This document shows positions 44,755 to 63,796 of a stretch of DNA of 64,000 bases, piece by piece. A program made the translations under genes and the position numbers. Position 1 is the stretch's first letter, and every line of letters starts with the position of its first letter. The DNA is from Rhizobium sp. CCGE531. Its GTDB lineage: Bacteria; Pseudomonadota; Alphaproteobacteria; Rhizobiales; Rhizobiaceae. The stretch lies in contig NZ_CP032687.1 in NCBI RefSeq assembly GCF_003627795.1, positions 372,001-436,000 on the forward strand, written 5' to 3'. The notes under the pieces were generated by a model. The model made no database searches and was not told where the DNA came from. It was given only the letters and a program-made list of their open reading frames with translations.

Positions 44755-44960
44755 GGCGGCATAGATACGTTTGACGTCCGCGAAGTCGCTGAGTTCAACG
44801 AGCAGAACGGTCGCTTTCAACGTCTTCGCATGCTCGCGCTAGGCCTTCGCAAGGGAAGCAAGATTCGTCAAGCACCACTGTTCGGTCGCCATTGCATTCA
44901 ACCCTGCGAGATCGCAGCTGAGCAGCCGGGTATTCGTTTCATCACGGATGTCGCTCAGCG
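44755..44960 (-). pseudogene. Possible RidA/YjgF remnant after citrate synthase
   Basis: Reading leftward, TEQWCLTNLASLAKA, a stop, then REHAKTLKATVLLVELSDFADVKRIYAAP resembles the middle and C-terminus of RidA proteins (enamine deaminases): NLKA..LEAAG and a KTTVFLADMNDFA-like strand. Short, interrupted and without start. Tentative. Confidence 0.35.
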
Positions 44961-46244
44961 CTTTGAAAGCGGAACGTATTCGCGCAGCGGTGCGCCGGTA
45001 TAGAGCTGGCGCGGGCGGCCGATACGCTGATCCGGATCTTCGATCATCTCGTTCCACTGGGCAATCCAGCCGACGGTGCGGCCGAGCGCAAATAGTACCG
45101 TGAACATGGTCGTGGGGAAGCCGAGCGCCTTCAGCGTGATGCCGGAATAGAAGTCGACATTCGGGTAAAGCTTCTTCTCGATGAAATAGTCATCGGTCAG
45201 CGCGATACGCTCCAGTTCGATCGCGATGTCGAGCAGCGGATCGTCCTTGATGCCGAGTTCGCCGAGGACCTCGTGCGCCGTCTTCTGCATGATCTTGGCG
45301 CGCGGATCGTAGTTCTTGTAAACGCGATGACCGAAGCCCATCAATCGGAACGGATCGTTCTTGTCCTTGGCGCGGGCGATATATTCCGGAATGCGGTCGA
45401 CCGTGCCGATTTCCGTCAGCATGTTGAGCGCAGCTTCGTTGGCGCCGCCATGGGCCGGGCCCCAGAGGCATGCGATGCCGGCGGCGATGCAAGCAAAGGG
45501 ATTGGCGCCGGAAGAGCCGGCGAGGCGAACCGTCGAGGTCGATGCGTTCTGTTCATGATCCGCGTGCAGGATGAAGATGCGGTCCATGGCGCGGGCAAGC
45601 ACCGGATTGACGACATATTCCTCGCAGGGCACGGCAAAGCACATGCGCAGGAAATTCGACGCATAGTCGAGATCGTTCTTCGGGTAAACGAAGGGCTGGC
45701 CGATATGGTACTTGTAGGCCATGGCGGCAAGCGTCGGCATCTTGGCGATCATACGAAGGCTTGCGACCATGCGCTGGTGCGGATCGGTGATGTCGGTGGA
45801 GTCGTGATAGAAGGCCGACAGAGCGCCGACGCAGCCGCACATGACGGCCATCGGATGCGCATCGCGGCGGAAACCGGTGAAGAAGCGGGACATTTGTTCA
45901 TGCACCATGGTGTGGTGCACGACCCGATAGTCGAAGTCCTTCTTCTGGGCTGCGGTCGGCAATTCGCCGTAGAGCAGCAGGTAACAGACTTCGAGGAAGT
46001 CGCCGTGCTCGGCAAGCTGTTCGATCGGATAACCGCGATGCAGCAGAACGCCTTCGTCGCCATCAATAAAGGTGATGCTGGACTCGCACGACGCAGTCGA
46101 AGTGAAGCCAGGATCATAGGTGAACATCTTCGTCTGCTCGTAGAGGGATCCAATGCCGAGGACGTTCGGACCGATCGTGCTTGATCGAAGTTTCAATTCG
46201 GCACTATGGCCGTCGACTAAGACACAAGCATTGTTGTTATCCAT
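44955..46244 (-). CDS. gltA: Citrate synthase
   Basis: Condenses acetyl-CoA and oxaloacetate to citrate. 429 residues, the length of the hexameric Gram-negative type. Active-site residues visible: [23 protein letters not shown] (His), [13 protein letters not shown] (Arg) and [14 protein letters not shown] (Asp). Ribosome site GAGGA nine bases before ATG 46244. A plasmid-borne citrate synthase (pcsA) is known from R. tropici symbiotic plasmids, and this gene could be its equivalent. It lies next to isocitrate lyase on the same strand, linking entry into the TCA cycle and the glyoxylate shunt. Confidence 0.92.
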
Positions 46245-46387
46245 GATATTTTTCCTCAGGGCTCGCTAGCTGGGAACTAACAGCTGCCGAATGAACTGAT
46301 CTGTGTTCTAATTGTCTTCCCGCAGAGGGGGTTCGGAACGAAACTCTTCGAGCGCAATTGCGACGCGCGATTACAAGAGCTGCGATC
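46245..46387. other. Upstream region of citrate synthase
   Basis: No gene. Likely contains the gltA promoter; none of the usual boxes could be placed with confidence. Confidence 0.4.
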
Positions 46388-46567
46388 TTAAGATATCCGG
46401 CCGAGCCGGTGATGCAGGTTTGAGTATTTTACTGCCACTGGCTCGTTTTTCACCACGTGCAGATAGTGGGCGACAGCTACCCGGATGAGCTCAAAGTCCT
46501 CTTGCGAAAAGACAGCCCGCGGTCGCTCCAGCAAGATGGGTTTCTTTTTCTCTTCATCGTTCGACAT
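46388..46567 (-). CDS. Small conserved protein next to isocitrate lyase
   Basis: 59 residues from ATG 46567. Charged N-terminus (NDEEKKKP) and a helical segment FSQEDFELIRVAVAHYLHVV. I recall similar short proteins directly downstream of aceA in rhizobia; the role is unknown. It begins 63 bp after the aceA stop on the same strand, so co-transcription is likely. ORF extension upstream to 46618 adds residues without a ribosome site (GGAGG lies just before ATG 46567). Confidence 0.65.
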   Translation of the reverse strand: MSNDEEKKKPILLERPRAVFSQEDFELIRVAVAHYLHVVKNEPVAVKYSNLHHRLGRIS

Positions 46568-46630
46568 TACTTCCTCCGGTAAGGTAAAGGACGCAGGCCT
46601 GCTGCAGGTCCCTTGCAAGGTAGGTCTGCA

Positions 46631-48223
46631 TCAGGCCGCAAACTGGTTCATCGTGTTATTGGCTCCGCCGGCCTTAAGCGCCGCCTCGCCGGCAAAATAC
46701 TCTTTGTGATCGTCGCCAATGTCAGAACCAGCCATGTTCTGGTGCTTCGCGCAGGCAATGCCCTGGCGGATTTCCTTTCGCTGGACGTTGGCGACGTAAC
46801 CGAGCATGCCCTGCGCGCCGAAATATTCTTTGGCGAGATTGTCCGTCGAGAGCGCCGTGGTGTGATAGGTCGGCAGCGTAATCAGGTGATGGAAAATGCC
46901 GGCGCGTTTGGAGGCGTCATGCTGGAAGGCCCTGATTTTTTCGTCGGCTTCCCGCGCCAAATCGCTGTCGTCATATTGTTCGCTCATCAGCTTGGCCCTG
47001 TCGAACCCAGAGACGTCCCTTCCTTCGCTCTGCCAACCATCAAAAACCTGCTGCCGGAAATTCAGCGTCCAGTTAAAAGAGGGCGAGTTGTTATAGACCA
47101 GCTTGGCATTGGGGATCACCTGCCGGATGCGGTCCATCATGCTCGCGATCTGTTCGACATGAGGCTTTTCGGTCTCGATCCACAGCAAGTCGGCGCCATT
47201 GTTAAGCGCATTGATGCAGTCAATCACGCAGCGGTCGGCGCCTGTGCCTTCACGAAACTGATAAAGGTTGGAACGCAGCCGCTTCGGCCGCAAGAGCTTC
47301 GAGCCGCGCGTGATCAACACGTCGCCGTTGGAGGGTGGCTGGCCGGTGACATCGTCGCAATCCAGGAAGCCGTTGTACTGGTCGCCGATGTCGCCTTCGC
47401 TGACGCTGAAGGCGATCTGCTTGGTAAGGCCTGCGCCGAGTGAATCGGTGCGAGCCACGATGATGCCGTCGTCGATGCCGAGCTCGAGAAACGCGTAGCG
47501 GCATGCGCGGATCTTGGCGACGAATTCCTCGTGCGGAATGGTCACCTTTCCGTCCTGATGGCCGCACTGCTTTTCATCGGAGACCTGGTTCTCGATCTGC
47601 AGCGCGCAGGCGCCGGCTTCAATCAACTTTTTCGCCAGCAGGTAGGTTGCTTCGGCATTTCCGAAACCTGCATCAATATCAGCAATGATGGGAATGACGT
47701 GGGTCTGATGATTGTCGACCGCCTGAACCAGCTGCTGTTCCCGCGCTTGGTCACCCTCCACCCGGGCTTTGTCGATTTCCCTGAACAACATGCCGAGTTC
47801 GCGTGAATCTGCCTGGCGCAAGAAGGTGTAGATCTCCTCGACAAGGGCCGGCACGCTCGTTTTTTCATGCATGGACTGGTCGGGGAGCGGACCGAACTGC
47901 GACCGCAGTGCCGCAACCATCCAACCTGAGAGATAGATGTAACGGCGTTCCGTCGTGCCGAAGTGCTTTTTCAGCGAGATGACTTTCTGTTGGGCAATAA
48001 ACCCATGCCAGCATCCGAGCGACTGCGTATATTTGCTCGGGTCTTGATCATAGGCGCCCATGTCCCGACGCATGATCGCAGCGGTATAGCGCGCAATGTC
48101 TAGACCGGTTCTGAATCTGTTCTGAAGGCGCATGCGAGCGACAGCTTCGGCAGTGAGGCCGGACCATGCGTGGTTTTCGACAATCAAGGTTTTGGCTCCT
48201 TCAACACTATCTGAATACGACAT
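46631..48223 (-). CDS. aceA: Isocitrate lyase (long form)
   Basis: Splits isocitrate to glyoxylate and succinate, first step of the glyoxylate shunt. 530 residues, matching the long Pseudomonas-type enzyme and not the 430-residue E. coli type. Active site: ADIDAGFGNAEATY (Mg site), EKQCGHQDGKV (catalytic Cys), ARTDSLGAGLTKQIA. C-terminal NQFAA is complete. Divergent from a ScfR/RamB-type regulator. No malate synthase is encoded in the window, so the next step must be supplied elsewhere. Confidence 0.93.
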   Translation of the reverse strand: MSYSDSVEGAKTLIVENHAWSGLTAEAVARMRLQNRFRTGLDIARYTAAIMRRDMGAYDQDPSKYTQSLGCWHGFIAQQKVISLKKHFGTTERRYIYLSGWMVAALRSQFGPLPDQSMHEKTSVPALVEEIYTFLRQADSRELGMLFREIDKARVEGDQAREQQLVQAVDNHQTHVIPIIADIDAGFGNAEATYLLAKKLIEAGACALQIENQVSDEKQCGHQDGKVTIPHEEFVAKIRACRYAFLELGIDDGIIVARTDSLGAGLTKQIAFSVSEGDIGDQYNGFLDCDDVTGQPPSNGDVLITRGSKLLRPKRLRSNLYQFREGTGADRCVIDCINALNNGADLLWIETEKPHVEQIASMMDRIRQVIPNAKLVYNNSPSFNWTLNFRQQVFDGWQSEGRDVSGFDRAKLMSEQYDDSDLAREADEKIRAFQHDASKRAGIFHHLITLPTYHTTALSTDNLAKEYFGAQGMLGYVANVQRKEIRQGIACAKHQNMAGSDIGDDHKEYFAGEAALKAGGANNTMNQFAA

Positions 48224-49954: not shown

Positions 49955-50610
49955 TCCTACGTTTCGCGCCATCTGGCCCGCCAATCAGTTCTCCAGTCTC
50001 GGCCGGCTAATGTAAGCGGTTGCGATCAGTTGGCTGATGGCGACCCTTTCGACCTCGGATGTGATGGTCGCATTGGTCCAGGCGTCTTCAACGTCACCTG
50101 CATTCATTCTGGCCATTTTCGTCGGGGCGATCGCTGACAACTTTAGCCGACGTAAGGTGATGATCATTGGCCGAAGCCTTATGATGACCGCATCCGCCAT
50201 GCTCACGCTTTCCGTTGCTTTCGACGAAACTGATCCGTGGATCATTCTCGGTTTCAGTTTTCAGGCTGGCTGCGGCATTGCTCTCCACGATCCCGCCTGG
50301 CAGGCATCGGTCGGGGATATCGTCGAACGGCCCCACCTGCCGGGTGCAGTCACGCTTATTTCTGTCGGGTTCAATACTGTTCGCAGTGTCGGTCCCGCAC
50401 TGGGAGGGATCGTCGTTGCCTCAGCGAGGCCCCTCTCTGCCTTTGCGATTGCAACATTTGGTTTTGCAGTTCCGCTGATCACCTTGTGGCAAAATAAATG
50501 GAAAACGCTTTCCTCATCCTTGCCGCGTGAGGCGATGTTTACAGCTATCTGTGATGGCTTGCGCTTCACCGCTATGTCCTCAGAAATCAAGGGAACGGTT
50601 GCACAGAGCC
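49955..50610 (+). pseudogene. MFS transporter (EntS-like) remnant
   Basis: Encodes the first four to six membrane segments of an MFS_3 exporter: FRAIWPANQFSSLGRLM, a stop codon (TAA near 50009), then AVAISWLMATLSTSDVMVALVQA, DNFSRRKVMIIGRSLMM, and NTVRSVGPALGGIVVA. After about 50600 the frame leaves the family. One nonsense change and a missing C-terminal half: non-functional. Confidence 0.75.
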
Positions 50611-51453
50611 ACTCGCTTTCGGTCGCATTTGGCTGCTCCACGGGCTGGCTGAGTGCCCGGCCGAAATCAAGTGGATCGATACCTAAAGGAACTGGAAGCT
50701 TTGAAAACGCCCAAGGCAGGAACCATAAACATGATGACCCAAGATCAAGAAATTGCCGTGCATCGCGTCGCCGAGGTTATGCGCGGTTCCAATTCGGCTG
50801 TGGGAGGCCTTGGCCGCTGGCCCGAAGGCTGTCGCCGCAGCTCAGCGTGGTTTGCAAAAAGCGCCGGCGTCTCCCATCATCCCCCAGCTCGACTTCAGCT
50901 GTTTGCAAGACATCGGTTCGCATCGGCAAATAGGTATGGTAAATCAATCAGTGGTAGAGCTTCGTGCTACAGCTATTTCAAAGTGACCGTTGCAATATCA
51001 AAATTGAAATTCTACTATGGCTTAGGCGAATTTTCCTTTCATTCGCCAAAGTGGCTGCACGAGCAGTCACCTTTGGGCCGCCAATAGCCCCTTCGAGGCG
51101 GCCCTTCCTTTGTGAGACGTCAACGGCATTTCGAATATTGGAACGAAAAGGATTCACATCGGCAAAGTGTTGCCCGCCGTGACCGGCAAGGTCGCTATCA
51201 AACCACGCCTCCCTGGCTCCTCTGCGATTCGGTGCCAGACAAGGAATCACGAGCGCTTCCTGCTACGGCAAGAGGGCAAATCACGAAAGCACTCACTGGA
51301 ATAAATGTGGTAATTGAAAACCCAGTCGAATGGATACTTGGTTTGGGACGTCGTGCGCGGGGCTCGAAAGCGAAAATTCAGTGCAACCGTCTGGTGTTTG
51401 GATGCCAGCATGGCTACAATCTCAATCGTACGGAATGGGGAGGCTGCACTGAC
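50611..51453. other. Stretch before hxsD with no clear gene
   Basis: Open frames 50653-51087 and 50753-50986 (plus) show pieces such as MTQDQEIAVHRVAEVMRG and ALAAGPKAVAAAQRG, which could be one frameshifted helical protein, but no family was recognised. The hxs promoter should lie near its right end; no -35/-10 was assigned. Confidence 0.35.
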
Positions 51454-51741
51454 GTGAAACCGCAAAACTCTCACACCTCGTCCCCAGAGAAAACTCGCCG
51501 CAGTGCGATCGAGCTCGATCCGACATTCCGTCCATATCTCGCAGTGGCTATCGTTCGGTTTAGTGCGTCGCATCCAGATACAGAAATCGAAATATCGCAA
51601 ACCATCAGCCTGTTGGATAACGGCGCAGCGCCGAGTGATCTGCTCGTTCGAGAGTTCCACCACTGTCTGTATCGCGAGAAAATTTATGCCGAGACGCTTC
51701 CGCTCAGGCGTGCCCTGGTCGACGGTGTCCTCGGGCGATGA
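51454..51741 (+). CDS. hxsD: His-Xaa-Ser system protein HxsD
   Basis: Small cytoplasmic partner, 95 residues from GTG 51454, chosen because GGGGAGG lies 10 bases upstream; the open frame extends to 51112 without one. The pattern fits HxsD: IELDPTFRPYLAVAIVRFSA (strand-helix), EIEISQTISLL, and the conserved end EFHHCLYREKIYAETLPLRR. First gene of hxsDBCA and overlapping hxsB by ATGA (51738-51741). Role unknown; small size and fixed linkage suggest a precursor-recognition or chaperone function for the two radical SAM enzymes. Confidence 0.8.
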   Translation: MKPQNSHTSSPEKTRRSAIELDPTFRPYLAVAIVRFSASHPDTEIEISQTISLLDNGAAPSDLLVREFHHCLYREKIYAETLPLRRALVDGVLGR

Positions 51742-53144
51742 CCGTATTTCCCCTTAAGTTCAAACCGTTCGGCGCCGGCTATCTTTTTGCGGATGATGCG
51801 GGCGGTTACTTCAAAGCCGACGCTCACTTTCTCAATCGCTATGCGACCGGAAAGCTGACGGCACTGGATAGGGGCTTTCTTGAAGCAAATGGTCATGCGT
51901 TCAATGAGATCGACGATCCAGCCTATATGGGATTTGCCTACCGGTGGGCCCAACGGTTGCACCGTCCTCAAGAGCTGAATTACGTCATTCTCGTTCCGAC
52001 CCTCCGTTGCAATTTGGCATGTGCCTATTGCCAGGTGTCTCGGGTGAACGAGAGCACTCCGGGCTTTGATTGGACGGATGAGACGCTTGAGCGCGTTCTC
52101 CGATTTCTCGATGCCATGACGTCCGCGAGCGTCAAAATCGAATTCCAGGGTGGCGAGCCACTGCTCCGATTAGACCTATTGGAGAAGGTTCGTGATTTCG
52201 CTCGCCGCAAGTTCCAAGAAGTTTTCTTTACGGTATGCACCAATCTGCAATCAGTATCGGAAGAAGCTTGGGATTTCCTGGATGCCTCGGACGTCTTCGT
52301 GAGTACGTCACTTGATGGCGAATTTTCGACGCATGAGCGGCAACGAACCGTAAACGCCAAAGACACGCAGCAATTCGTATCGAACCTCAGCTATGCCATC
52401 GAGCGCTTGGGGCAGGGAAAGGTCTCGGCTCTCCCGACGCTAGACATCAACCAGTTGCCGAGCGTTTCCGAGATCATTGATACATTTGGCCGGTTCGGAT
52501 TTCGGTCAATTTTCCTTCGACCAGTTAATCATCAGGGTTTTGCCAGAAAACGGTTTCAGACCACCGGTCTCGAAGACAAATGGAATGCCTACCATGCCGA
52601 TTTTATCGACGCTCTGATCGAGCACAATTGGACCGCCGGGCAGCCGGTTGAGGAGTTCTATTTCACACACTGCCTGCGGCGGGTTCTGCGTGGCGGCCAC
52701 AATCAGCACGTCGACCTTCGTAATCCGAATATTCTCGGCCGAGACTACATCGTTATTGACTACGATGGCACCTTCTATCCGACGGATGAAGCCAGGATGG
52801 TCACGCGGGTTGGACAGGTCGATCTTAGCATTGGCAATCTTTGTGACGGCATCGACCAGTCCAAGCTAGACGTGCTGAACGAAGAGTCTTCCAATTCATT
52901 CCATCCCGACTGCATCCATTGTCCATACCAAGCCGCGTGTGGTGCGGACGTTGTTGACGATCTATCCCGTTATGGGCGCATCGATCTACCGAAGGCCGAC
53001 ACAGCCTTCTGTCGCCGTCATACCGCAATCTTCGACAAGATCTTCGAGCTGCTCTATTCGGCTGACGAGAAAGTCCAAAAGAGCCTTGCGTTCTGGGCCG
53101 GAATTCCGGAATTCGATCCGTCACTGGCGCCGGTACACACATGA
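51738..53144 (+). CDS. hxsB: His-Xaa-Ser system radical SAM maturase HxsB
   Basis: 468 residues. Radical SAM cluster ligands C91, C95, C98 in LRCNLACAYC; the SAM glycine motif is FQGGEPLL. N-terminal region (about 80 residues) resembles the peptide-engaging part of RiPP maturases. The C-terminal SPASM-like set C392, C395, C401, C425 (CIHCPYQAAC and FC) should hold an auxiliary Fe-S cluster. Expected to modify the HxsA repeat together with HxsC. ATGA overlaps on both sides (51738-51741, 53141-53144) imply coupled translation. Confidence 0.9.
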   Translation: MTVFPLKFKPFGAGYLFADDAGGYFKADAHFLNRYATGKLTALDRGFLEANGHAFNEIDDPAYMGFAYRWAQRLHRPQELNYVILVPTLRCNLACAYCQVSRVNESTPGFDWTDETLERVLRFLDAMTSASVKIEFQGGEPLLRLDLLEKVRDFARRKFQEVFFTVCTNLQSVSEEAWDFLDASDVFVSTSLDGEFSTHERQRTVNAKDTQQFVSNLSYAIERLGQGKVSALPTLDINQLPSVSEIIDTFGRFGFRSIFLRPVNHQGFARKRFQTTGLEDKWNAYHADFIDALIEHNWTAGQPVEEFYFTHCLRRVLRGGHNQHVDLRNPNILGRDYIVIDYDGTFYPTDEARMVTRVGQVDLSIGNLCDGIDQSKLDVLNEESSNSFHPDCIHCPYQAACGADVVDDLSRYGRIDLPKADTAFCRRHTAIFDKIFELLYSADEKVQKSLAFWAGIPEFDPSLAPVHT

Positions 53145-54223
53145 TCGATTTGCGGCTCAAGATCGATGACGTCCCGATCGACAATCCAAGTATCGTTCGC
53201 TTGCGCTCGCACGCGGTGGACAGTGAATATGATGCACTCCTGATCGACAGAGATCAGGAAAGTCAAACCTTCGATCTCGCGGGTTACTCGCTTCGCGTCC
53301 ACTGCGGTCCCGAAACCGATCTTGACGGTGACGTCCTGCTTCTAGTTCCTGGGCGAAAGTCAGCGCATCGATTGGTGCGATCCCGGTCGAGACACAACAC
53401 CTTCTTGGTCACCGAGCAATGCGACCAGCTCTGCGTCATGTGCTCGCAGCCTCCAAAGAAATATCACGCCGACCTCTTCGACCAGTTCACAGTCGCCGCC
53501 ACCTTAGCGCCGGAAAACGCTCGGATCACCATATCTGGCGGCGAACCGCTGCTGCACAAAGGAAGGCTGTTTCAGTTTCTTCTAGCAGCCGTGAAAGCCC
53601 GGCCGGATATCTCATTTCATGTTCTGACCAACGGCCAGTTTTTCGAACCGGGCGACAGCACCGTGATGGATGAGATCGGACGTGATCGCGTGCTATGGGG
53701 CATTCCGCTCTATGCGCCTTATGCGGGACTTCACGACAGCATTGTTGGAAAATCCGGAGCCTTTGAAACGCTGTCGTTGAACTTGACGGCGCTGATGAGG
53801 GCGGGGGCAGCGGTCGAGCTTCGTACGGTTGTCCTCCAGCAGAACTGGGATGTGTTGCCACAGCTTGCGAACTATGTCTCGACCCGGCTTCCGTTCATTG
53901 ACGTATGGGCGATCATGCAACTGGAAAATATTGGCTACGGCAGAATGAACTGGGCCCATTCGTTCAAGGATACGTCGCTGGATTTCGGCCGACTCCGCAC
54001 AGCCATCAACCTCGCGATTGGGCGCGGTATTCAAACGCTGCTCTATAATTTCCCTCTTTGCAGTGTCCCTCCAGGGTACCGACATCTGGCACCAGGCACG
54101 ATTTCAGATTGGAAGAACAAATTTTTGGAACAGTGCAGCGGATGTTCGCTGCGCTCTACTTGTGGTGGATTTTTTGAATGGTATAAAGCTGATCAGGGGT
54201 TTGGGGGACTCTCACCACAATGA
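53141..54223 (+). CDS. hxsC: His-Xaa-Ser system radical SAM maturase HxsC
   Basis: 360 residues. Radical SAM ligands C94, C98, C101 in EQCDQLCVMCS, glycine motif ISGGEPLL, and a C-terminal cysteine group C307, C332, C335, C341 (QCSGCSLRSTCGGFFEWY) that probably binds a second cluster. Distinct in sequence from HxsB, so the system uses two different radical SAM enzymes, either for separate steps or as a complex. Overlaps hxsA by ATGA (54220-54223). Confidence 0.9.
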   Translation: MIDLRLKIDDVPIDNPSIVRLRSHAVDSEYDALLIDRDQESQTFDLAGYSLRVHCGPETDLDGDVLLLVPGRKSAHRLVRSRSRHNTFLVTEQCDQLCVMCSQPPKKYHADLFDQFTVAATLAPENARITISGGEPLLHKGRLFQFLLAAVKARPDISFHVLTNGQFFEPGDSTVMDEIGRDRVLWGIPLYAPYAGLHDSIVGKSGAFETLSLNLTALMRAGAAVELRTVVLQQNWDVLPQLANYVSTRLPFIDVWAIMQLENIGYGRMNWAHSFKDTSLDFGRLRTAINLAIGRGIQTLLYNFPLCSVPPGYRHLAPGTISDWKNKFLEQCSGCSLRSTCGGFFEWYKADQGFGGLSPQ

Positions 54224-54843
54224 AGAAGCGCAAGATCTACCTGGTGCCGTCGTTGATCGCGGCCGGTTTCATGCCATCGAAAGGTGATGCTGCGCCAATC
54301 ATCGGCCTTACCGAAAAGAAGCCTGCCACCTCCTTGTTCGAACGGTTGCGGGTCAAGCAGGTCTACACCCTTGCGGGCCATAGCTCGCATTCGAGCCACG
54401 CAAGTCATGCCAGTCACGCAAGCCACGCATCCTCAGCTGGAGGTGGCTACGTCCCACGGGGCGATTATGACACTGCTTATCCATCGCCCGATCCGACACC
54501 GCGCTATCAGCCCAACCCGGGGCCGGTCATCAGAAGTCTCCCAACCACTCCAAACTTACCGGGGACGACGTCAACTGGCACCTATTCGACGCAATCCTCT
54601 TCGACGAGCGCGCAGCCAGTGCCACTGAAGACGTTGCCAGGCAACTCGGATAAATTTCGCCGTATCGTCATACAGGTCCAGACCGCTCTGATCGCCTTTG
54701 GTTATTTCGGCGGCCCGATAACAGGGCAAGTCGATGCCGCCACCAAGGGCGGGCTCAGTAAAATGCAGGATGCGTACGGTCTCAAAGTCACCGGCACCAT
54801 AACTCCGCAGGTCCTGTCGGCCCTGGGGATCGCGACGAACTAA
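54220..54843 (+). CDS. hxsA: His-Xaa-Ser repeat protein HxsA, predicted modified substrate
   Basis: 207 residues. N-terminal basic/hydrophobic leader MKKRKIYLVPSLIAAGF suggests export. Residues 54-71 are six consecutive His-Xaa-Ser triplets (HSS HSS HAS HAS HAS HAS). A Pro/Ser/Thr-rich linker follows, then a C-terminal peptidoglycan-binding-1 domain (about residues 148-204: VIQVQTALIAFGYFGGPITG, GLKVTGTITPQVLSALG). The design suggests a wall-anchored protein whose HxS tract is altered by HxsB/HxsC. The chemical product is not known to me. Followed 6 bp later by a periplasmic protein gene. Confidence 0.88.
   Translation: MKKRKIYLVPSLIAAGFMPSKGDAAPIIGLTEKKPATSLFERLRVKQVYTLAGHSSHSSHASHASHASHASSAGGGYVPRGDYDTAYPSPDPTPRYQPNPGPVIRSLPTTPNLPGTTSTGTYSTQSSSTSAQPVPLKTLPGNSDKFRRIVIQVQTALIAFGYFGGPITGQVDAATKGGLSKMQDAYGLKVTGTITPQVLSALGIATN
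54379..54432 (+). repeat. hxsA: Six HxS codon triplets in hxsA
   Basis: Nine-base units encoding His-Ser/Ala-Ser, with mixed synonymous codons (CAT/CAC; AGC, TCG, AGT, TCC), so the repeat is maintained at protein level and not as recent DNA slippage. Confidence 0.85.
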
Positions 54844-54849
54844 GCCAAC

Positions 54850-56034
54850 ATGCGAATGAAACGGCGTTTCCTTTATACGATTATCACAATTGTTTTGTCT
54901 GTTTCGGTTTCGATGGGCGCCGCGACTGCTGCGGTCTCCTACCGTCATCTCTCCACGACGAACGGGACCACGATCCTCCTTGTTGAGGGCAGCTTCGAGA
55001 CTGGCGATGATCCTCAACGCATCGCCTTAGAACTTGCTGCGAGCCCGGCCAAATACATCGCGTTTAATTCGGCGGGTGGCGATCGATCAATCGCGATGGC
55101 TTTCGGGAAGGCAATCCGCAAGACCGGCCTTCCGACGCTCCAGACAAAAGGCTCCCCTTGTCTCGAAACCTGCCTTTTGGCTTTTATGGGTGGCCTTAAT
55201 CGTTATGCCGAAGATGAGAGCATAGGCATATCTGTAGAGACGTTTGCGACATCTGCGGAATCTGACGGTCGTCTCAATCCCTCAGTGTCAGCAGCCCTCA
55301 AAGACTACCTCGGCACGATGGGTGTCAGCGCTTCGCTTCTGGACGCAGCGTTGTCAATGCCGCTGGGGCAATCGAAAGAATTGAATCTTGTCGATATGGC
55401 GGGCTATCAGCTGGTAACGGCGCAGCTCAATGGAGAAAGCGCTTCGGCAGATGAAGTGCAGGACATTCAGCCTACCGATCAAGCAGGGGCAGTGGAAGTG
55501 TTCAATGAGTTCCAGCGGGTATGGTCGGGCTCGAGCAGCGAGGCGGTAGCCTTTCTTCGCAACGTCTATGCCGACCGCATCCAGTACTACGGAAAAGACC
55601 TTTCGCGAGAAGATGTGCTTAAGGAGAAGAGCGCTTTCGTGGACCGATGGCCGACAAGAATCTACACAGCGCGGCCGGGTTCAGTTCATGCGCTTTGTGC
55701 AGACAAGTGTTCAGTCTTCGGCGTTGTCGACTGGTACGCCTTCAGTGCAACCAGAAAAAAGGGTGCTTCAGGCGCAGTCAACCTGGCGCTGACTTGGGAC
55801 CCGGTTAGTCGAAGGATAGTCAGTGAGACGGGCAGGGTCATTGAGACCGACAAAGCAGTCGCCGGCCCCGATCGTATCATCCGCCGTTGGATTCTCGACG
55901 CTACCGCCTGCTCGATTGGGAACGCTGTCGACGCTGAAGTATGCAAATCGCGCTCGATCCTGGAGGCCGATTTGAATAGCTCTGGATGGTGTGATCAGCG
56001 GGGATTGGGCTGGAGGCAGTGCGCCAGCCCGTGA
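54850..56034 (+). CDS. Periplasmic ClpP/crotonase-fold protein (COG3904-like) with C-terminal NTF2-like part
   Basis: 394 residues. Signal peptide to about residue 28 (IITIVLSVSVSMGAATAA). Residues 40-180 resemble COG3904 ClpP-fold proteins: YIAFNSAGGDRSIAMAFGKA (oxyanion-type glycine stretch) and SPCLETCLLAFMGGLNRYA. The serine nucleophile expected in the ASAC motif is replaced (CLETC, with C104 and C108), so protease activity is doubtful. Residues 215-330 (VFNEFQRVW to VSRRIVSETG) look like an NTF2/SnoaL fold. Six bp after hxsA and before a converging operon; likely fifth gene of the hxs operon. Confidence 0.7.
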   Translation: MRMKRRFLYTIITIVLSVSVSMGAATAAVSYRHLSTTNGTTILLVEGSFETGDDPQRIALELAASPAKYIAFNSAGGDRSIAMAFGKAIRKTGLPTLQTKGSPCLETCLLAFMGGLNRYAEDESIGISVETFATSAESDGRLNPSVSAALKDYLGTMGVSASLLDAALSMPLGQSKELNLVDMAGYQLVTAQLNGESASADEVQDIQPTDQAGAVEVFNEFQRVWSGSSSEAVAFLRNVYADRIQYYGKDLSREDVLKEKSAFVDRWPTRIYTARPGSVHALCADKCSVFGVVDWYAFSATRKKGASGAVNLALTWDPVSRRIVSETGRVIETDKAVAGPDRIIRRWILDATACSIGNAVDAEVCKSRSILEADLNSSGWCDQRGLGWRQCASP

Positions 56035-56038
56035 TCAA

Positions 56039-56791
56039 CTAGCGGCCGCCCTCGCGGCGTGGAGTTTCGACTGACCGTGCTGCAGGAGTCGGTTTGCGAG
56101 CAACAGAAAGCACCGGACTGGAGGAAATCGTCCCAGGAGGCACCCAGCCAATGGCGTCGCCGGCGCTAACGTGGGTCCAACCCGCTTCTTGCTCCATAAG
56201 AGATACAAGGGCGTTCTGCCCAAGACTGCCGACAACGATGTACTTAGGACCAGGGCCGTCTCTGAGTTCAAGAGGTAGCCGAATGTAAGCGAACCTCGCG
56301 GCAGGGGGCGGGGTGGCCTTATCGAAAGGATCGACCGCAGGCGCGATGGTGGTCGCCTCCGATTTCTCGATGGACGCGATCAATCCATCGAAGACGTAGG
56401 GATCAGGTTCAGGGGCGCCGCTCGTGATTGGCTGCGTGATCGGAAGCCGAGGGCTCGCCTCGGTGCTTTGAGGCGTAGGTGCGGAGAAAGACGGAGCCGC
56501 TTCCGAAACGGATGTCGCATTCGCTGTACTGGAAGATGTGGGCGACGGCTCTGCACCTGCAGGAGTCGCGGTTACCACCGAAGTTTGAGACGCGGGAAGC
56601 GCTTTTTCCTGAGCGCGTGTTGGGGTAGTAACCGGCGCTGTCACGATCTGATTGCGAGAGGGAATAAGTGACGAAACAGGGGCGTGAGACGCCGTTCCCG
56701 GCTTTGACGTCGTATTCGCTGCGAAGACAGCGCCCCCGATCATCGCCAGCATTACCCAGAAGTCTCGGTATGCTCCGGCCACGCGCGTCAC
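56039..56791 (-). CDS. Membrane-anchored SH3-domain protein
   Basis: 250 residues from GTG 56791, 2 bp after the kinase stop. One N-terminal membrane segment (FWVMLAMIGGAVFAA), a Pro/Ser/Thr/Ala-rich extracytoplasmic linker of about 130 residues, then a bacterial SH3 domain (RLPLELRDGPGPKYIVVGSL through WTHVSAGDAIGWVPPGTI). Such domains often bind peptidoglycan, matching the wall-binding domain in HxsA. Last gene of the VWA-PP2C-kinase operon; its stop is 4 bp from the stop of the converging hxs operon. Confidence 0.75.
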   Translation of the reverse strand: MTRVAGAYRDFWVMLAMIGGAVFAANTTSKPGTASHAPVSSLIPSRNQIVTAPVTTPTRAQEKALPASQTSVVTATPAGAEPSPTSSSTANATSVSEAAPSFSAPTPQSTEASPRLPITQPITSGAPEPDPYVFDGLIASIEKSEATTIAPAVDPFDKATPPPAARFAYIRLPLELRDGPGPKYIVVGSLGQNALVSLMEQEAGWTHVSAGDAIGWVPPGTISSSPVLSVARKPTPAARSVETPRREGGR

Positions 56792-56793
56792 CG

Positions 56794-58701
56794 TTACCCT
56801 ATATCCATTTGGACTTGCTTAAGCCGCACATACGCTTCAACCAATTGCGGGGGCGGGTTCCTTCGCAGTTCGGAGGCAGTATCCAGAAGTTCCTTGAGCT
56901 CATCCGGAGCACGCCTCAGCTCTCCTTCCAGGTCAGCCCTCTGACGCGCTATGTCCGTTTTGACCTCATTGATAGCCTGCGGATCGGTGGCAATGTGACT
57001 ATTGAATACAAATTTCTTTTCAACAGACGACGACCAATTCGCAAGGGCGTCGGCTTTTTTGGGACCAATGCCGGGAACGGCTAAAACCGAGCGAGTCTTC
57101 ACATCCCACGCGCTGTCAAAACCAAACGACGAGAGCGTTACCGTCCTGCTCTGTCCAATGCCAGCGATTTTTGCGCGGGAGATCAAGTGCCCCTGCATGT
57201 GGCTCCTGAATTGAAGGTCTCTTTTCTTTCGCTCGAGCTCGGCGAGCCGTTCGCGTTCCTGTTCCGGAAGTTTGCCATGAGCCGAGGCCAGGGACAGATA
57301 GTGGCTTTTTCGTTTCAGGAACACGGCAGGCCCGGCGTGCTCTTCCCAAATTTTCTTCTTCTCCTCCCATGCTGCGGTAGCCGCCTGCAGTTCGACCCTA
57401 AATTCTTCCGCAGGACGGCGGGATCGGATCATCATTATGATTGATGCGATAACCAGAGCTGCACCCCAGAAGCCATTCAACTGGTTTGCAAGGAAAATAC
57501 CTATCAGCAGTCCCGCAACCGAGGCGAAAAACGCCAGCTGCTTTCCACGTGAGAAGGATACCGCCACAGGGCTGCGGGTGAGAGACGGAACCGCAATGAT
57601 GCTTTCAGGTGCTGGGGCTTGGTTTGGTGGAGCGGGACGGTTGATCAGAGCAATGAGGTCACCGATGTTCAGTGTGGAAACAGTGCTTGAAATCTTCGCG
57701 GCGAAGAGGCTCCTGCCCATCGATTTCTCGAGGCGGCACCAGGGACACGACGAACTCCGAAAATATGCATGCGATTTGTCAGCAGAGCACTCCAGCAAAC
57801 CCTTCTCGAGCTTGCCGAGGATTTGGACCCACGAGGTCGCATTCGGTCGACCGCCCGGAAGATCACCACTCTTTCCGAAAGCGGATTCGAATGCGTCGGA
57901 AACCTCCTTGCCAAAGTCACCCAGCGCTGGTGTTAGCGGCGGAGGTTCCATGCGCGTCTCAGCCCTGCGTGCGCTATAGGCGAAACGGTGGTCGCCTATA
58001 GCGGTCGGGATGTCTATGTCGCCAGGACCGAGATGCTTCCCAGCAAACGGATGTCTCCCAAGAAAAAGCAGCTGAAAGATGAGGACGGCTAGACCAAAGT
58101 TGTCGTGGTTCGCCATCCGAACCACTTTTTCGAAGTCCGCGCCTCTCAGCTCAGGCGGCGTGTAATCCGGCACGCCTACGGTGCAGCGATAGACCTCTGG
58201 CCCCTTTTTGAACTGAAAGGAGTCGCTGTCGATCAGAGTTACCATAGCCTGGTTTGAAACGAGGATGCCGGAGTGGTTTACGTCGCCGACCACGCAGCCC
58301 GTGCTGTGGATTGCAGCAAACGCGTTCGCAAGATTGAACGCGCTGCGCACCAGGAACCGGGCGTCGGCAGAAGGAAATTCCGTCCGCCTGCTGCCAGGCC
58401 CATAGAGTTCATGGATATTCTTAAAACCTGCGACCTTCTTCATGGAAAACCCCATGAACATTCCGCTCTTGTCACTGACAGTGTCGATCGGGAAGGCGAC
58501 GATGTCGGTTGTCTTGTGGAGTGCGGCCGACGTCATGGCAAGGATTTTTGCTTTCCTCTCGAAGGCCCTGCCGGGATTATAAATCTTCACCGCCAAATCG
58601 CCCTCCTCGTGGACGTGGTAGACCGCGCCTTCGCCGCCTTTTCCTAGCATCCCGCCAAGCGTCACCTTCCTCCCATCCGATCCGAATACGATAGTGCTCA
58701 T
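56794..58701 (-). CDS. Ser/Thr-type protein kinase with zinc knuckle, membrane segments and HhH domain
   Basis: 635 residues. Kinase domain 1-300: glycine loop GKGGEGAVY (20-28), Lys39 in LAVKIY, catalytic loop GDVNHSG (D140, N142) in place of HRD...N, DSD (158-160) in place of DFG. A C/H set (C305, H311, C319, C322) may bind zinc; membrane segments at about 388-406 and 411-425; a charged coiled coil 430-500; and a helix-hairpin-helix around 536-555 (VLAVPGIGPKKADALANW). This matches kinases of TerY-P triads. Overlaps the PP2C stop by ATGA (58698-58701). Confidence 0.85.
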   Translation of the reverse strand: MSTIVFGSDGRKVTLGGMLGKGGEGAVYHVHEEGDLAVKIYNPGRAFERKAKILAMTSAALHKTTDIVAFPIDTVSDKSGMFMGFSMKKVAGFKNIHELYGPGSRRTEFPSADARFLVRSAFNLANAFAAIHSTGCVVGDVNHSGILVSNQAMVTLIDSDSFQFKKGPEVYRCTVGVPDYTPPELRGADFEKVVRMANHDNFGLAVLIFQLLFLGRHPFAGKHLGPGDIDIPTAIGDHRFAYSARRAETRMEPPPLTPALGDFGKEVSDAFESAFGKSGDLPGGRPNATSWVQILGKLEKGLLECSADKSHAYFRSSSCPWCRLEKSMGRSLFAAKISSTVSTLNIGDLIALINRPAPPNQAPAPESIIAVPSLTRSPVAVSFSRGKQLAFFASVAGLLIGIFLANQLNGFWGAALVIASIIMMIRSRRPAEEFRVELQAATAAWEEKKKIWEEHAGPAVFLKRKSHYLSLASAHGKLPEQERERLAELERKKRDLQFRSHMQGHLISRAKIAGIGQSRTVTLSSFGFDSAWDVKTRSVLAVPGIGPKKADALANWSSSVEKKFVFNSHIATDPQAINEVKTDIARQRADLEGELRRAPDELKELLDTASELRRNPPPQLVEAYVRLKQVQMDIG

Positions 58702-59468
58702 TTGCGCACACCGAGTACGAGCGTCTTGTCGTCATCGGTTCTTTCGCAAACGGATGGGCTTTCAAGATATTCTCGCAGCGCCATCGACAGAGGAAGGTTC
58801 CTGCCGGCTTCCTCCGAAAGAGCCAGCGGCGTCACCATCCGATTGAAAAATGGCTCATGAGCCGAACGATTTGCGCTATTGAGGACTAGACGTTCGATGC
58901 CGTCGGAGAAGACTGCAAATCGATCGACACGACGGTCATTTCGAACGAAAGTGAGATGCGGTTGGGGATCATCGGTGATGAAGCTGGTTGTCGATGCATA
59001 TTCGCCTTGATACGGCCACGACGGCACATCCCAGGCTTCGTCTCCTTCGTAGCGTACGACAGCCGCGCCATCGCCGATGTGAAAGATCACAGTACCGTTT
59101 TCAGACATGAGAGCAGCAACGCTTGTGGCCGCGAAATCGCGTCGCTGTGTTCCAGAGCGACTAGCCTTCGCGCTGATGTATTCGCGGATATCGTCTATCC
59201 AGTCCCAGACCATTTCTTCACGAAGCTGGGAGAGGGAGTGATTTGCGAGATATCCACGGATGAGCCGAAGCAGACCGATGCAGACTGATTTTGAACCAAT
59301 CTGCGCCAGTTTTGCGCTTCCCGCACCATCTGAAACGATCACTGCCATGACGGTTTCATCGACGCTGGCTAAAGTCTCACTCAATGCAAAATCCTGACAT
59401 GGCAAACCCGTCTTCACATGGGAGGTGCCACAAGCACGGGCCGCAGCCCATCGCCAGCCATCGGTCAT
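58698..59468 (-). CDS. PP2C-type protein phosphatase
   Basis: 256 residues from ATG 59468, which overlaps the VWA stop by ATGA; an earlier in-frame start at 59483 would overlap more. Metal-binding Asp residues in [40 protein letters not shown] and [10 protein letters not shown] show the PPM fold. It is the PP2C_2-like group common in TerY-P triads, expected to reverse the phosphorylation made by the following kinase. Confidence 0.88.
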
Positions 59469-60145
59469 GCGATTGAGGCCCATCCGTCTGGCGTTGCAGG
59501 ATTAGAGAGAGGAACGGCGTCACCGGGATTGGATTGCGAGACGGAGCTTAGAGAGCTGGAAAGCCACTGGAACAGATCTCGGAACCTGAGTTCCTTCAGC
59601 GCCAAAGGCTGGCGCACGCAGATATGGGAAAGCGTTTCGAAATTAGCGCCGTCGACGCCCACAGCAAAAAAGCTGAAGGCCTTTTCAACTTCTCCAGCCT
59701 TGACCTGCGCCGCCGCACTCTGCCAGGCGTCTGTTGGGGCTCCGTCCGTAATCAGGAAAACCCACGGGCGATAGTATGAGATTCCGTTTTGGCGATAGGA
59801 GTTCTTCCGGTCGCGCAGAAGCCGGAGCCCTTCCTCGATTGCATGGCCCATTGGCGTATCTCCCTGTGCGGCTAACTCGGGGACGATCCAGTTTTGCATG
59901 CTTGTAAAGTCGTTGACGATGGTCACAGGGCCGAAGGAGACTATGCCTATCTCAACGCGCTTAGATGCGAGAGAGTCCGCATAGAGCTCGTCTTTGAACT
60001 GAACGAGACCTTCATTGAGTTCCCTAAGCGGGCGTCCCCGCATCGAACCAGAGACGTCTAGCAATAACAGGCAGGGACAACGCGGTTCGGGATTGTCCAC
60101 GAACTCCGCGCCATCAAAGGGGATTTGCTCAAATGGATTCGGCAT
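59465..60145 (-). CDS. VWA domain protein, TerY-like
   Basis: 226 residues from ATG 60145 (GAGGAG six bases upstream); the open frame to 60199 is ignored. MIDAS metal site D30-x-S32-x-S34 in [10 protein letters not shown], with the later T and D in QGDTPMGHA and LITDGAPTD. Stand-alone VWA proteins of this size lead the VWA-PP2C-kinase triads linked by comparative genomics to tellurite-type stress and surface-associated signalling. First gene of the four-gene leftward operon. Confidence 0.88.
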
Positions 60146-60298
60146 GTGGTTCTCCTCAAGCTTGTGAACAATGCATAGCAGCTCTCGTCGGCGCTGCATT
60201 TACAAAAGAGCGCTCAAAGATATTTTTTCGCCGGGTGTGGCTTTTTGGAAAGGCACCGGAACCGCGACTCTGGGGTTCGAGATGGCAGCATCGAGGTG

Positions 60299-61391: not shown

Positions 61392-61838
61392 TCATCGTGC
61401 AATATTTCGGGAGTCTTTGGTCGCCTTCTTAAACGGATCCATGATTGTGACGCCGCGCTCCTGAAAATCAGCGACGTTGCGGGTGACGATGACCAGACCA
61501 TTCGCCAGCGCCGTCGCGGCTAATCCTTTGTCGTCAATGTTCTTGTCGGAGTGTCCGAGCATCTGCCCCCAGCGGCGAGCGACAGCTTCATCGACAGGAA
61601 GGATACGCACATCGTAGGCTGCGAAGATGGCATCGGCCGCCTTGGCGATCTCGTTCGCCACAGCGTCGTCGGTTTTCCGCGTTTTTTCAATGCCTTTCGA
61701 GATCTCTCGGACCGAGGTCACGCTGATCGCGAGATCGGTATCGTCAACCGTATCGAGCCAAGCCGCCACATTTTCGTGCGGCACGGGTCGACCTATCTCT
61801 TTCAGAACATTGGTATCGAGCAGATATTTCAAGCTCAA
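61392..61838 (-). CDS. vapC: PIN-domain toxin (VapC-like)
   Basis: 148 residues. PIN fold with acidic residues in YLLDTNVLKEI (Asp8), SVREISKGIEKT (Glu) and DDKGLAATALANGLVIVTRN (Asp). VapC enzymes cleave specific RNAs. The start overlaps the upstream antitoxin by ATGA (61835-61838). Confidence 0.85.
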   Translation of the reverse strand: MSLKYLLDTNVLKEIGRPVPHENVAAWLDTVDDTDLAISVTSVREISKGIEKTRKTDDAVANEIAKAADAIFAAYDVRILPVDEAVARRWGQMLGHSDKNIDDKGLAATALANGLVIVTRNVADFQERGVTIMDPFKKATKDSRNIAR

Positions 61839-62425
61839 TCATCCAGCGCACTAAGATCGGCGGCTCGCATGGCGGCCTTTGCCGTTTGCTTCGGATATGG
61901 CCTGCCTGCCTTCGGATGCGCCTCCGCATAGACTCGCGCTGCAACGATCTGTTGTTCCTTCAGAGAGGGATAGTCGCGCATGACATCTTTGACAGTGGCG
62001 CCGGTGTCGAGGAGAGCGGCAATCCGATGCGCCTCGATTTGCGTTCCCCGGATTAGCGGTTCCTTGCCGGATAGGTCGATTTGAGCAGTGAGCTTGTCGA
62101 GTTCCTTCAGCTTACGCTCGACGAAGACCAGGTGCTGACCAATGTCGTAGCGCTGTTTACCGAACACGACCTCTTTCGCGTGACCGCGTTTGAGAGAGCT
62201 TCGCAACGCCTCGTAGAATTCGGACTGGCTCTTGGGTGTCAGCGCCTGTTTGAGTTCGTCATAGGCATGGAGAAATACCAGCTCGGCTTGACCGAACTGC
62301 CTGATATTCCGACCGCCTCGCTTCACGAGTTGTGGCTTGATCGGCGCGCGCTCGACAACCTTTTTGAAAGTGTCTAGAGGCGCATCAACCACAAAAGCCG
62401 CTTGTGCCGTCGTCAGATGTTCCAC
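61835..62425 (-). CDS. DUF433-containing antitoxin for the PIN toxin
   Basis: 196 residues from GTG 62425, which has AAAGGG upstream. An N-terminal MerR-like DNA-binding half (LTTAQAAFVVDAPLDTFKKV) and a C-terminal DUF433 part: PLIRGTQIEAHRIAALLDTG, then DYPSLKEQQIVAARVYAEAH. DUF433 proteins pair with PIN toxins (VapBC45-type). Coupled to the toxin by a 4-bp overlap. Confidence 0.8.
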   Translation of the reverse strand: MEHLTTAQAAFVVDAPLDTFKKVVERAPIKPQLVKRGGRNIRQFGQAELVFLHAYDELKQALTPKSQSEFYEALRSSLKRGHAKEVVFGKQRYDIGQHLVFVERKLKELDKLTAQIDLSGKEPLIRGTQIEAHRIAALLDTGATVKDVMRDYPSLKEQQIVAARVYAEAHPKAGRPYPKQTAKAAMRAADLSALDD

Positions 62426-62506
62426 CCTATTGCCCTTTCTAATACACCCCCAAAGATAGGGGCGAATTAGAGAGAGTGCAAGGCCCGGACCGATGTGAGC
62501 CAAAGA

Positions 62507-63796
62507 CTACGATTGACGCCGCACTTCGTCCACCAGGGTCAGAGTTTCGAGGCGATCAAGAAGCTGCTTGGCTTTCGATTCTCCGAGCAGTTCAGGTGCC
62601 ATTGTCGGCCAATGTTCAAGCGCACGTCTGATTGTCGCAACGACCTCGCGTGTGATCAGCTTCGCGTCCAGGCGAAGAAAACTTGCGACCCTCTCAAAGC
62701 GATGCAGGTTCACGCTTTCGAAGCTGTGGGTTTTGACGAACCTCAGCGCCATAGTGTCGGACGGCATGTAAAGAACGGTCGGGACAATATCGTAGGCCGG
62801 CGACAGCCGGATTTCGCCAGGTGCCGGGAAACGGAAAGACCAGTTCTTGAGATGGTTGTCGCCATTTCCTAAAAGCACGTCTGCAACGACCCTGCGGATA
62901 GCTTCCAATATGTCATCACGATGGTCGGTGCTGAAGCGGCGCACCATGTTGATGATGGTCTCGGTCGTCGCCATCGTATATTTTCGATCGCCTATCGCTC
63001 CCAGAATTTGGGCCGCGTCTTCGATGTGGATGCGACGATCATCGTCGGCGCGGTCGAAGCGATCGACGACGAGAACGCGCTCGCCATGAGCCGACAGTTC
63101 CGCAGGGACGCCGCTGATTGCGGTGCTGGAGACAAGCCGGCAGTTTGCTGTTCGCACGCCGATCGTCCTTGCCATCTGCATGGCCGCATGTTCAGCTTCC
63201 GGCAGCCCTGGGTATCGCTCGCTTGCCACCTTGATGATGCAGCGGCCGGTGTTACCGCGACCGGGAACTGTCAATCTGTCGCCCTCGACGTTGGCCGTGA
63301 ACTTGAGCTGCACACCGGCGAGCGAGAATTTAACCGCGCCGTCGGGCAGCGCGACATCCACGCCATGTACCTTTTCGATGGTGATTGGCCCGGCTGACGC
63401 TGGGATCGCGGTTTCCGGTACGACGAGGATTGCGCCAGGGAGATCGCCACCAAGGCGGGTCAGGACGTCGAACTCGTCGTGATCGCCAGGCCCCATTTCG
63501 TTCAACACGAGATCCCTGAGGGCGCCCTCGGGAAGCAATCCTGAAAACCATGGGGGCAATGTGCCGTGAAGCCCAATTTTGTCGCCACGCCGCGCCAGAC
63601 GATTGCGTGTGCCCTCGTCATCGTCAGGATCGAACCAACCCAGGCTGAAAATTGGCCGCCTTGGATCCCGCAGAAATGTTTCGGCAACGACAAACGCGAC
63701 CGCGCCGTCACTATCGCGCGTCAGGGTCCCTACCCTAACCTTCCCGAGTGTCTGATCGAGAAGATGGACGCCGAGGATCGCCGATGATTTCGCCAT
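62507..63796 (-). CDS. hipA: HipA-like Ser/Thr kinase toxin
   Basis: 429 residues from ATG 63796, touching the HipB stop as TGATG. N-terminal HipA_N region (VGTLTRDSDGAVAFVVAETF), activation region SLAGVQLKFTA, catalytic LGNGDNHLKNWSF (Asp) and LSPAYDIVPTVLY metal site. HipA of E. coli phosphorylates glutamyl-tRNA synthetase and causes dormancy; the target here is unknown. Confidence 0.88.
   Translation of the reverse strand: MAKSSAILGVHLLDQTLGKVRVGTLTRDSDGAVAFVVAETFLRDPRRPIFSLGWFDPDDDEGTRNRLARRGDKIGLHGTLPPWFSGLLPEGALRDLVLNEMGPGDHDEFDVLTRLGGDLPGAILVVPETAIPASAGPITIEKVHGVDVALPDGAVKFSLAGVQLKFTANVEGDRLTVPGRGNTGRCIIKVASERYPGLPEAEHAAMQMARTIGVRTANCRLVSSTAISGVPAELSAHGERVLVVDRFDRADDDRRIHIEDAAQILGAIGDRKYTMATTETIINMVRRFSTDHRDDILEAIRRVVADVLLGNGDNHLKNWSFRFPAPGEIRLSPAYDIVPTVLYMPSDTMALRFVKTHSFESVNLHRFERVASFLRLDAKLITREVVATIRRALEHWPTMAPELLGESKAKQLLDRLETLTLVDEVRRQS

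Follow-up and report, generated by a model that had tools for sequence, protein, structure and literature searches.

A 64,000-nucleotide stretch of Rhizobium sp. CCGE531 (positions 372001-436000 of contig C4, NZ_CP032687.1, in a 7.1 Mb genome; hereafter the window) contains what is almost certainly an hxs operon, the gene set of a His-Xaa-Ser (HxS) system, in which radical S-adenosylmethionine (SAM) enzymes would modify a run of HxS triplets in the protein HxsA. The families of this system (TIGR03976-TIGR03979, TIGR03981 and TIGR03982) reportedly go back to Haft and Basu. The locus belongs to this largely known family, and its novelty lies in a swap of partners and in the assignment of its HxsD. 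It matches the known system in HxsA, HxsB and HxsC, which score above their cut-offs, and in a remote homolog filling the HxsD slot. It differs in that neither TIGR03981 nor TIGR03982 was found at the locus, that its HxsD goes unrecognized by the family model, and that a ClpP-like gene and a kinase module are its neighbors. As the overall best explanation, to which we nevertheless give slightly less than an even chance, we propose a MauG-less, signaling-linked variant of a genuine His-Xaa-Ser operon, in which the chemistry set out below is combined with coupling to the kinase.

The hxs core and its His-Xaa-Ser tract

Profile searches confirmed HxsA, HxsB and HxsC, three of the four core genes named in a first-pass annotation of the window, above their NCBIfam cut-offs (Table 1), but returned no NCBIfam match for HxsD, even at E <= 10. 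The ATGA start overlaps that the annotation had described at every hxs junction are present at hxsD/hxsB, hxsB/hxsC and hxsC/hxsA.

The HxsA of the window carries the tract HSSHSSHASHASHASHAS, with six triplets. Its His and Ser codons are mixed, which points to selection acting on the protein rather than to slippage of a DNA repeat. A three-triplet DNA pattern had 4 overlapping matches in the window, all of them inside the tract, compared to 0.03 expected from shuffles; the tract is beyond chance. We found 411 HxsA homologs, of which the 120 listed are the basis of the tract statistics; the search employed the whole protein including the tract, whose presence is thus partly built in. All 120 carry the tract, with 5 triplets in 91 proteins, 6 in 22, 4 in 4, 7 in 2 and 3 in 1. 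The tract is defined by its H and S; the position between them varies and is mostly S, R, A or G. Common flanking sequences are [YF]TLAG ahead of the tract and SSGGGY behind it. Judging from these alignments, the near-fixed triplet number argues for a defined modified core, and the tract is very probably the modified site. As 114 of the 120 homologs are free of Cys, thioether chemistry on Cys is excluded for these. The conservation of the tract supports the earlier proposal that HxsB and HxsC act on it. The description of HxsA as a peptidoglycan-binding protein with six HxS triplets agrees with TIGR03979, PG_binding_1 and the position of the triplets, and the predicted anchoring of the peptide in the wall is supported by the C-terminal PG_binding_1 domain.

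HxsB and HxsC are the two radical SAM enzymes of the first-pass annotation, which had placed their CxxxCxxC motifs correctly and pointed to extra C-terminal cysteines. In our alignments the motif cysteines (C91/C95/C98 of HxsB and C94/C98/C101 of HxsC) are invariant, as are C392/C395/C401/C425 of HxsB (9 alignment rows) and C307/C332/C335/C341 of HxsC (12 alignment rows). HxsC reaches 26.7 bits against the Pfam model Radical_SAM, slightly below the cut-off of 29.5. From their four C-terminal cysteines, both enzymes would hold one auxiliary cluster each; the SPASM set, which we take to be a seven-cysteine motif, was found in neither, with four invariant C-terminal cysteines in HxsB and four in HxsC. 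Matches of HxsB to other families were all far below the cut-offs, among them PapB with 102 bits, anaerobic sulfatase maturase with 70, YhhB with 57 and FxsB with 45. By profile, the nearest solved structure in the PDB is an anaerobic sulfatase-maturating enzyme (anSME; E 7.6e-14), followed by 5wgg (1.1e-13). Residue D350 of HxsB, within YP[TS]DEAR, aligns with the YPCD motif of anSME, the Cys of which is Thr or Ser in HxsB, and the cyclophane-forming maturase YhhB has an Asp in the same column. As far as this alignment goes, D350 fits a hydrogen abstraction at Ser.

The small gene ahead of hxsB had no match to TIGR03976 in the window, and the genome of the window had none at E <= 1; among 54 relatives, two matched TIGR03976 at E <= 1. 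Its start is uncertain, and the annotated form in Rhizobium tropici CIAT 899, where the counterpart is termed hypothetical, is longer. A homolog search with the window protein found 18. An open reading frame (ORF) occupies the slot in 59 of 62 dereplicated loci (described below). In 40 of these loci it has the 4-nt overlap seen in the window, and a few of the 59 ORFs look spurious, at least those of L140 and L143. We aligned the window protein with 48 slot ORFs and five database proteins and compared this alignment by hhalign to a second one, of 11 rows, built from proteins that TIGR03976 had picked up in other hxs-bearing genomes (6 of 17 hxs genomes searched have such a protein above the cut-off). 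The comparison yielded a probability of 90.3 (E 1.5e-6), against at most 1.2 for 30 column-permuted alignments and 0.8 for a reversed control. Because of this difference the 95-residue protein is, judging from remote homology, a divergent HxsD subfamily missed by NCBIfam. The small hxsD partner of the first-pass annotation is thereby borne out by position and remote homology, although NCBIfam does not match it. Its AlphaFold2 model (predicted local distance difference test, pLDDT, 90) has the order strand-helix-strand-strand-long helix. For comparison, the PqqD-like recognition element of ribosomally synthesized and post-translationally modified peptides (RiPPs) is a three-strand winged helix; fold searches with the HxsD model gave no significant match. 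With HxsD identified here, a reconstitution of the system would probably need to include it.

To place the locus among its relatives, we employed a neighborhood set of 86 loci, of which 80 were found by the patterns [KE][IVL]EFQGGE and YP[TS]DEARM, so that conservation of these patterns there is by construction. These 80 are the best 80 of 530 relatives, and the set leans to the near kin of the window. Dereplication (HxsB below 90% identity) left 62 loci. In 9 of them less than 8 kb was available downstream of the hxsB start, and in 3 of these (L081, L092 and L103) less than 3 kb; counts of loci without a partner are therefore upper bounds. An HxsC scoring above its cut-off turned up in 15 of the 398 phylum genomes and in 9 of the 247 family genomes, and 55 of the 71 plasmid records bearing HxsC were classed as conjugative; hxs is therefore patchy and often on mobile plasmids. 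The hxs stretch of the window is 99.3% identical to plasmid pRtrCIAT899b of R. tropici CIAT 899, which is of the conjugative class and presumably the symbiosis plasmid of that strain. With this near-identical copy, the compact core of four genes is available in a tractable group. Two further relatives are probable natural interruptions: in Rhizobium sp. CCGE532 (NZ_CP032692.1 186811-192748) the hxs match is split in two with an annotated IS256 transposase beneath and no hxsB listed, and in CB3090 (NZ_CP121664.1 345416-351375) it is likewise split, the best match of the ClpP-like gene covering 57%.

Table 1. Features of the hxs locus and the adjoining kinase module, in window positions.
Feature	Position	Strand	Evidence
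hxsD, small partner	51454..51741	+	95 residues from GTG; ATGA overlap with hxsB; remote homology
hxsB, radical SAM maturase	51738..53144	+	TIGR03978 455.1 bits (cut-off 370); PF04055
hxsC, second radical SAM maturase	53141..54223	+	TIGR03977 321.2 bits (cut-off 267.9)
hxsA, substrate, probably exported	54220..54843	+	TIGR03979 223.5 bits (cut-off 121.65); PG_binding_1 (PF01471) 46.5 bits
Six HxS codon triplets (HSS HSS HAS HAS HAS HAS)	54379..54432	+	HxsA residues 54-71
394-residue protein, hydrophobic N-terminus	54850..56034	+	degenerate ClpP/crotonase-like (~29-190, weak) and NTF2-like (208-338)
SH3-domain protein, fourth module gene, convergent with hxs	56039..56791	-	PF08239 21.7 bits (below cut-off 27)
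Protein kinase, two predicted membrane segments (388-425)	56794..58701	-	PF00069 39.2 bits (cut-off 31.7); hydropathy
PP2C-type Ser/Thr phosphatase	58698..59483	-	PF13672 141 bits
VWA-domain protein	59465..60199	-	PF00092 40.5 bits; DVSGS metal-site motif at residue 48

Partners of the hxs core

In 19 of the 62 loci, all alphaproteobacterial, hxsA is followed by a protein of about 132 residues and a MauG-like di-heme protein with two CxxCH motifs. Among five such two-CxxCH proteins scanned, three passed TIGR03981, "His-Xaa-Ser system-associated MauG-like" (430, 382 and 371 bits; cut-off 340), and the two below it (337 and 251 bits) both come second among the two-CxxCH proteins of their respective loci; the single small partner protein scanned passed TIGR03982. 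The genome of the window has no TIGR03981 match above the cut-off (best 55 bits against 340). In 51454-60199, the only part of the genome searched for TIGR03982, nine proteins were called, and their NCBIfam matches include neither TIGR03981 nor TIGR03982. The stretches fetched for 14 loci of other genomes contain no two-CxxCH protein above 300 residues. Overall, the core occurs without MauG in 43 of 62 loci, some of which are cut short, and MauG and the kinase module occur together in none of the 62. A MauG-like partner is hence not universal in hxs loci. The first-pass annotation had spoken of a complete system with a possible redox role: the four-gene core stands, but the MauG-like and TIGR03982 proteins of relatives were not found here, and a redox role, plausible where the di-heme protein is present, is weaker in the window.

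The window has instead a module of SH3, kinase, PP2C and VWA genes, unmentioned in the first-pass annotation, which is the more telling context here. The VWA, PP2C and kinase proteins score above the gathering thresholds of PF00092, PF13672 and PF00069 in one overlapping gene run, resembling TerY-P. The SH3 assignment is helped by the homolog in locus L040, which scores 43.6 bits against PF08239, above its cut-off, and the kinase ends in a helix-hairpin-helix stretch (HHH 15.9 bits, below the cut-off of 24). Two papers describe VWA-PP2C-kinase triads as signaling switches, one form of which (TerY-P) is antiphage (PMC7699616, PMC11090510). The module of the window has the same three protein classes; it differs by the predicted membrane segments of its kinase, the extra SH3 protein, the adjoining hxs genes and VWA and PP2C proteins that PADLOC does not see. 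A membrane kinase, an SH3 protein and a wall-binding HxsA together suggest an envelope system.

To quantify the linkage, we searched plasmids with the kinase at E <= 1e-60 and obtained 21 records, 16 of them matching over at least 80% of the kinase length. Of the 16, 13 have hxsC no more than 4 kb from the kinase (12 from coordinate comparison and one read directly). The other three are two records of Mesorhizobium NZP2077 and one of Methylocystis; HxsC is found in just two Mesorhizobium records, both from strains other than NZP2077, and Methylocystis does not appear in the HxsC tally. Partial kinase matches include the plasmid record T136, where the partial kinase adjoins hxs, and four in Sphingomonas, Sphingobium and Cupriavidus, genera that are absent from the HxsC tally. 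Among 247 family genomes, a kinase relative occurs in 6, HxsC in 9 and both in 3 (P = 6.4e-4). The module lies upstream of hxs in L033, downstream and codirectional in L040 and convergent in the window lineage. On the HxsB tree, where the window row stands in for the near-identical L071, four changes are needed to account for the six rows with a triad. On the kinase tree, the seven hxs-linked rows other than L033 form one clade (99), and the L033 kinase is sister to that of G649 (100), a genome with no HxsC match at E <= 1e-30 whose contig ends just beyond the kinase. Both trees were made by a quick method, with a long-branch warning on the kinase tree. The association of module and hxs is, on these trees, likely to have arisen at least twice, and the kinase, phosphatase, VWA and SH3 proteins offer a testable partner module.

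The gene directly after hxsA follows at a gap of 6 bp, without overlap. The domains of its 394-residue product were drawn from Foldseek, VIA, hydropathy and alignments; no Pfam or NCBIfam match was found at E <= 1. The 50 matches shown for its AlphaFold2 model (pLDDT 75.7; predicted template modeling score, pTM, 0.48) were mostly of the NTF2 type and included one enoyl-CoA hydratase (E 4.6e-4, TMq 0.28). Catalytic ClpP positions were taken from the ClpP motif, and the catalytic Ser and His are not conserved in nine hxs-linked rows. The CxSAC pattern of P0003 and P0004 is found only in L038 (CESAC) of these nine, the others reading CLETC (window), CLNTC (P0002), CEGSC (L080) and CxAAC (five rows), and the His of P0003 (GVHQ) is missing from all nine. 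Of the "ClpP-fold" gene in the first-pass annotation there remains a weakly supported ClpP-like domain, whereas the catalytic residues are unconserved and residues 208-338 are NTF2-like. As a separate observation, a protein of about 380 residues is found upstream of hxsD in 10 of the 62 loci (e.g. L090 8436-9665); by eye, the C-terminal portion of this protein is similar to the additional domain at the C-terminus of the ClpP-like fusions P0003 and P0006.

Proposed modification and competing explanations

We propose that HxsA would be made in the cytoplasm, where HxsD helps HxsB and HxsC to act on it. HxsB would abstract one hydrogen atom at the beta carbon of every Ser, leaving a radical that would bond to the imidazole of the His at the start of that triplet and so give up to six three-residue rings, while HxsC may add a second change or handle other triplets. 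Modified HxsA would then be exported and dock on peptidoglycan via its C-terminal domain. At the envelope, its partner in this lineage may be the kinase/PP2C/VWA/SH3 module instead of MauG, with the ClpP-like/NTF2 protein as a further neighbor. We tentatively favor His-Ser rings, with somewhat less than even confidence, because His and Ser are the only conserved residues of the tract and have the spacing that three-residue cyclophane enzymes use. Triceptide or cyclophane maturases are radical SAM enzymes whose substrate motif has three residues, the first of them aromatic. HxsB has its Asp column in common with YhhB of this group; it differs in scoring 57 of 445 bits for YhhB and 44.8 of 370 for FxsB, in its His-Ser motif and in having only four C-terminal cysteines. 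As to precedent, the HxS motif putatively relies on HxsB and HxsC according to a 2022 paper, and a Pseudomonas paper lists hxs annotations. In the open-licence literature searched the chemistry of the HxS modification is not established, in agreement with the first-pass annotation, and an experimental paper elsewhere is possible. A further related case, going by the title of PMC10206099, is that of histidine-to-butyrine crosslinked copper-binding ribosomal peptides, which join His side-chain crosslinks with copper binding.

Three other fates of the tract were weighed against rings. HxsB and HxsC might oxidize Ser to formylglycine-type aldehydes, perhaps trapped by the neighboring His, as functional groups. 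Such oxidation, which we consider unlikely, draws on the conserved Ser of the tract, on anSME as the best PDB relative of HxsB and on the alignment of Asp350 with the YPCD motif of that maturase. Enzymes of the anSME type act on Ser or Cys. HxsB departs from them in its single C-terminal Cys set, the second set of cluster positions lacking Cys (that of YPC being T or S), in its HxS-tract substrate and in reaching only 70 of 349.45 bits for TIGR03942, and oxidation would leave the strict spacing to His unexplained. Somewhat less likely still, the tract might be a metal- or redox-active ladder with His at every third position, which modification only tunes and which MauG in relatives oxidizes further, as in quinone cofactors. 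The MauG-like protein downstream of hxsA in relatives speaks for this, as do the NCBIfam short name SAM_quin_mod, suggestive of a quinone-type modification, and the three-residue spacing, which would put the His residues on one face of an extended helix; no MauG-like gene was found at the window's locus, however, and its tract offers no Trp, Tyr or Cys for a known quinone. Very improbable, finally, is HxsA as the precursor of a small, bacteriocin-like modified peptide that is excised and released. The conserved flanks (YTLAG before, SSGGGY after) do resemble leader and follower signals and a protease-like gene comes next, but a wall-binding domain rather than the C-terminus follows the tract, the ClpP-like protein has neither the conserved catalytic Ser nor His, and no ABC exporter was identified among the operon genes.

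Whichever chemistry applies, the module could be ordinary mobile or defense cargo of the plasmid and its linkage to hxs mere hitch-hiking, a reading that we rate close to evens and that is compatible with either chemistry. Related triads also exist apart from hxs: that of Mesorhizobium NZP2077, with an SH3 gene, adjoins UvrD and AbiEii genes, and that of Methylocystis is close to HipA and conjugation genes. Insertion sequence (IS) elements and Shedu-like genes are near in CIAT 899, and the window itself has HipA- and PIN-like genes (by eye). Against hitch-hiking stand the linkage in 13 of 16 plasmid records, the three different arrangements, the codirectional genes packed tightly behind hxsA in S. 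meliloti and R. rhizogenes, and the kinase tree, which forces at least two changes of the hxs label. Functional coupling of HxsA to the kinase module is to us a reasonable but less than even prospect. A further step, that in rhizobia the modified tract serves as a sensing element, with wall-bound HxsA and the SH3 protein signaling damage to the envelope or attack by phage through the membrane to the kinase-PP2C-VWA switch and taking the place of the MauG-based redox partner of other lineages, is distinctly unlikely. If true, it would to our knowledge be the first radical-SAM-modified protein acting as a phospho-signaling input, possibly antiphage, on conjugative plasmids of root-nodule bacteria.

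Several points weigh against the MauG-less, signaling-linked reading with its rings and kinase coupling. Asp350 cannot tell Ser oxidation from ring formation. Hydropathy shows no peak above 1.5 that would indicate a signal peptide for HxsA or a membrane-spanning stretch for the SH3 protein, and PADLOC models returned no family for the VWA and PP2C proteins at E <= 0.01. The 16 plasmid records are not dereplicated, five being of the window's type (93-99% identity) and seven from Sinorhizobium. Genomes in the co-occurrence test are related and not independent; without G872, which aligned over query residues 333-634 only, outside the kinase domain, co-occurrence falls to 2 of 5 (P = 0.011). Furthermore, 31 of 62 tree rows, some ending at contig ends, have no MauG, triad, Clp or SH3 neighbor, so the hxs core does not require the module, and the kinase is missing from most plasmid records with hxs (21 kinase against 71 HxsC records).

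Neighboring genes

Beyond the VWA gene, the minus strand carries genes that, named by eye from their translations, are cargo of the toxin-antitoxin type (61392-63799): a PIN-like toxin (61392-61838), a possible antitoxin (61835-62503) and a HipA-like gene (62507-63799). On the other side of hxs lie a truncated major facilitator superfamily (MFS) transporter (50037-50933), for which PF05977 covers only profile positions 37-228 of 524, and, on the minus strand at 44955-48223, plasmid-borne citrate synthase and isocitrate lyase genes, named from the annotation of the matching stretch of pRtrCIAT899b.

In other genomes, thermonuclease-like proteins recur beside hxs (L124 1795-2766, L144 16372-17490 and L175 10631-11443), and some of them also carry SH3 or zinc-ribbon parts (those of L124 and L144 were named by eye); one upstream cluster of them is found in 7 of 62 loci, and one more is annotated in S. 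meliloti LMB1. In CIAT 899 a defense-like neighborhood with genes for a Shedu SduA-domain protein, SLATT and a reverse transcriptase (L037 30221-32701) lies about 11 kb past hxs, and pRt1078 of R. tumorigenes has a YhhA/YhhB cyclophane RiPP pair (L039 1693-4108) about 3.5 kb upstream of hxs.

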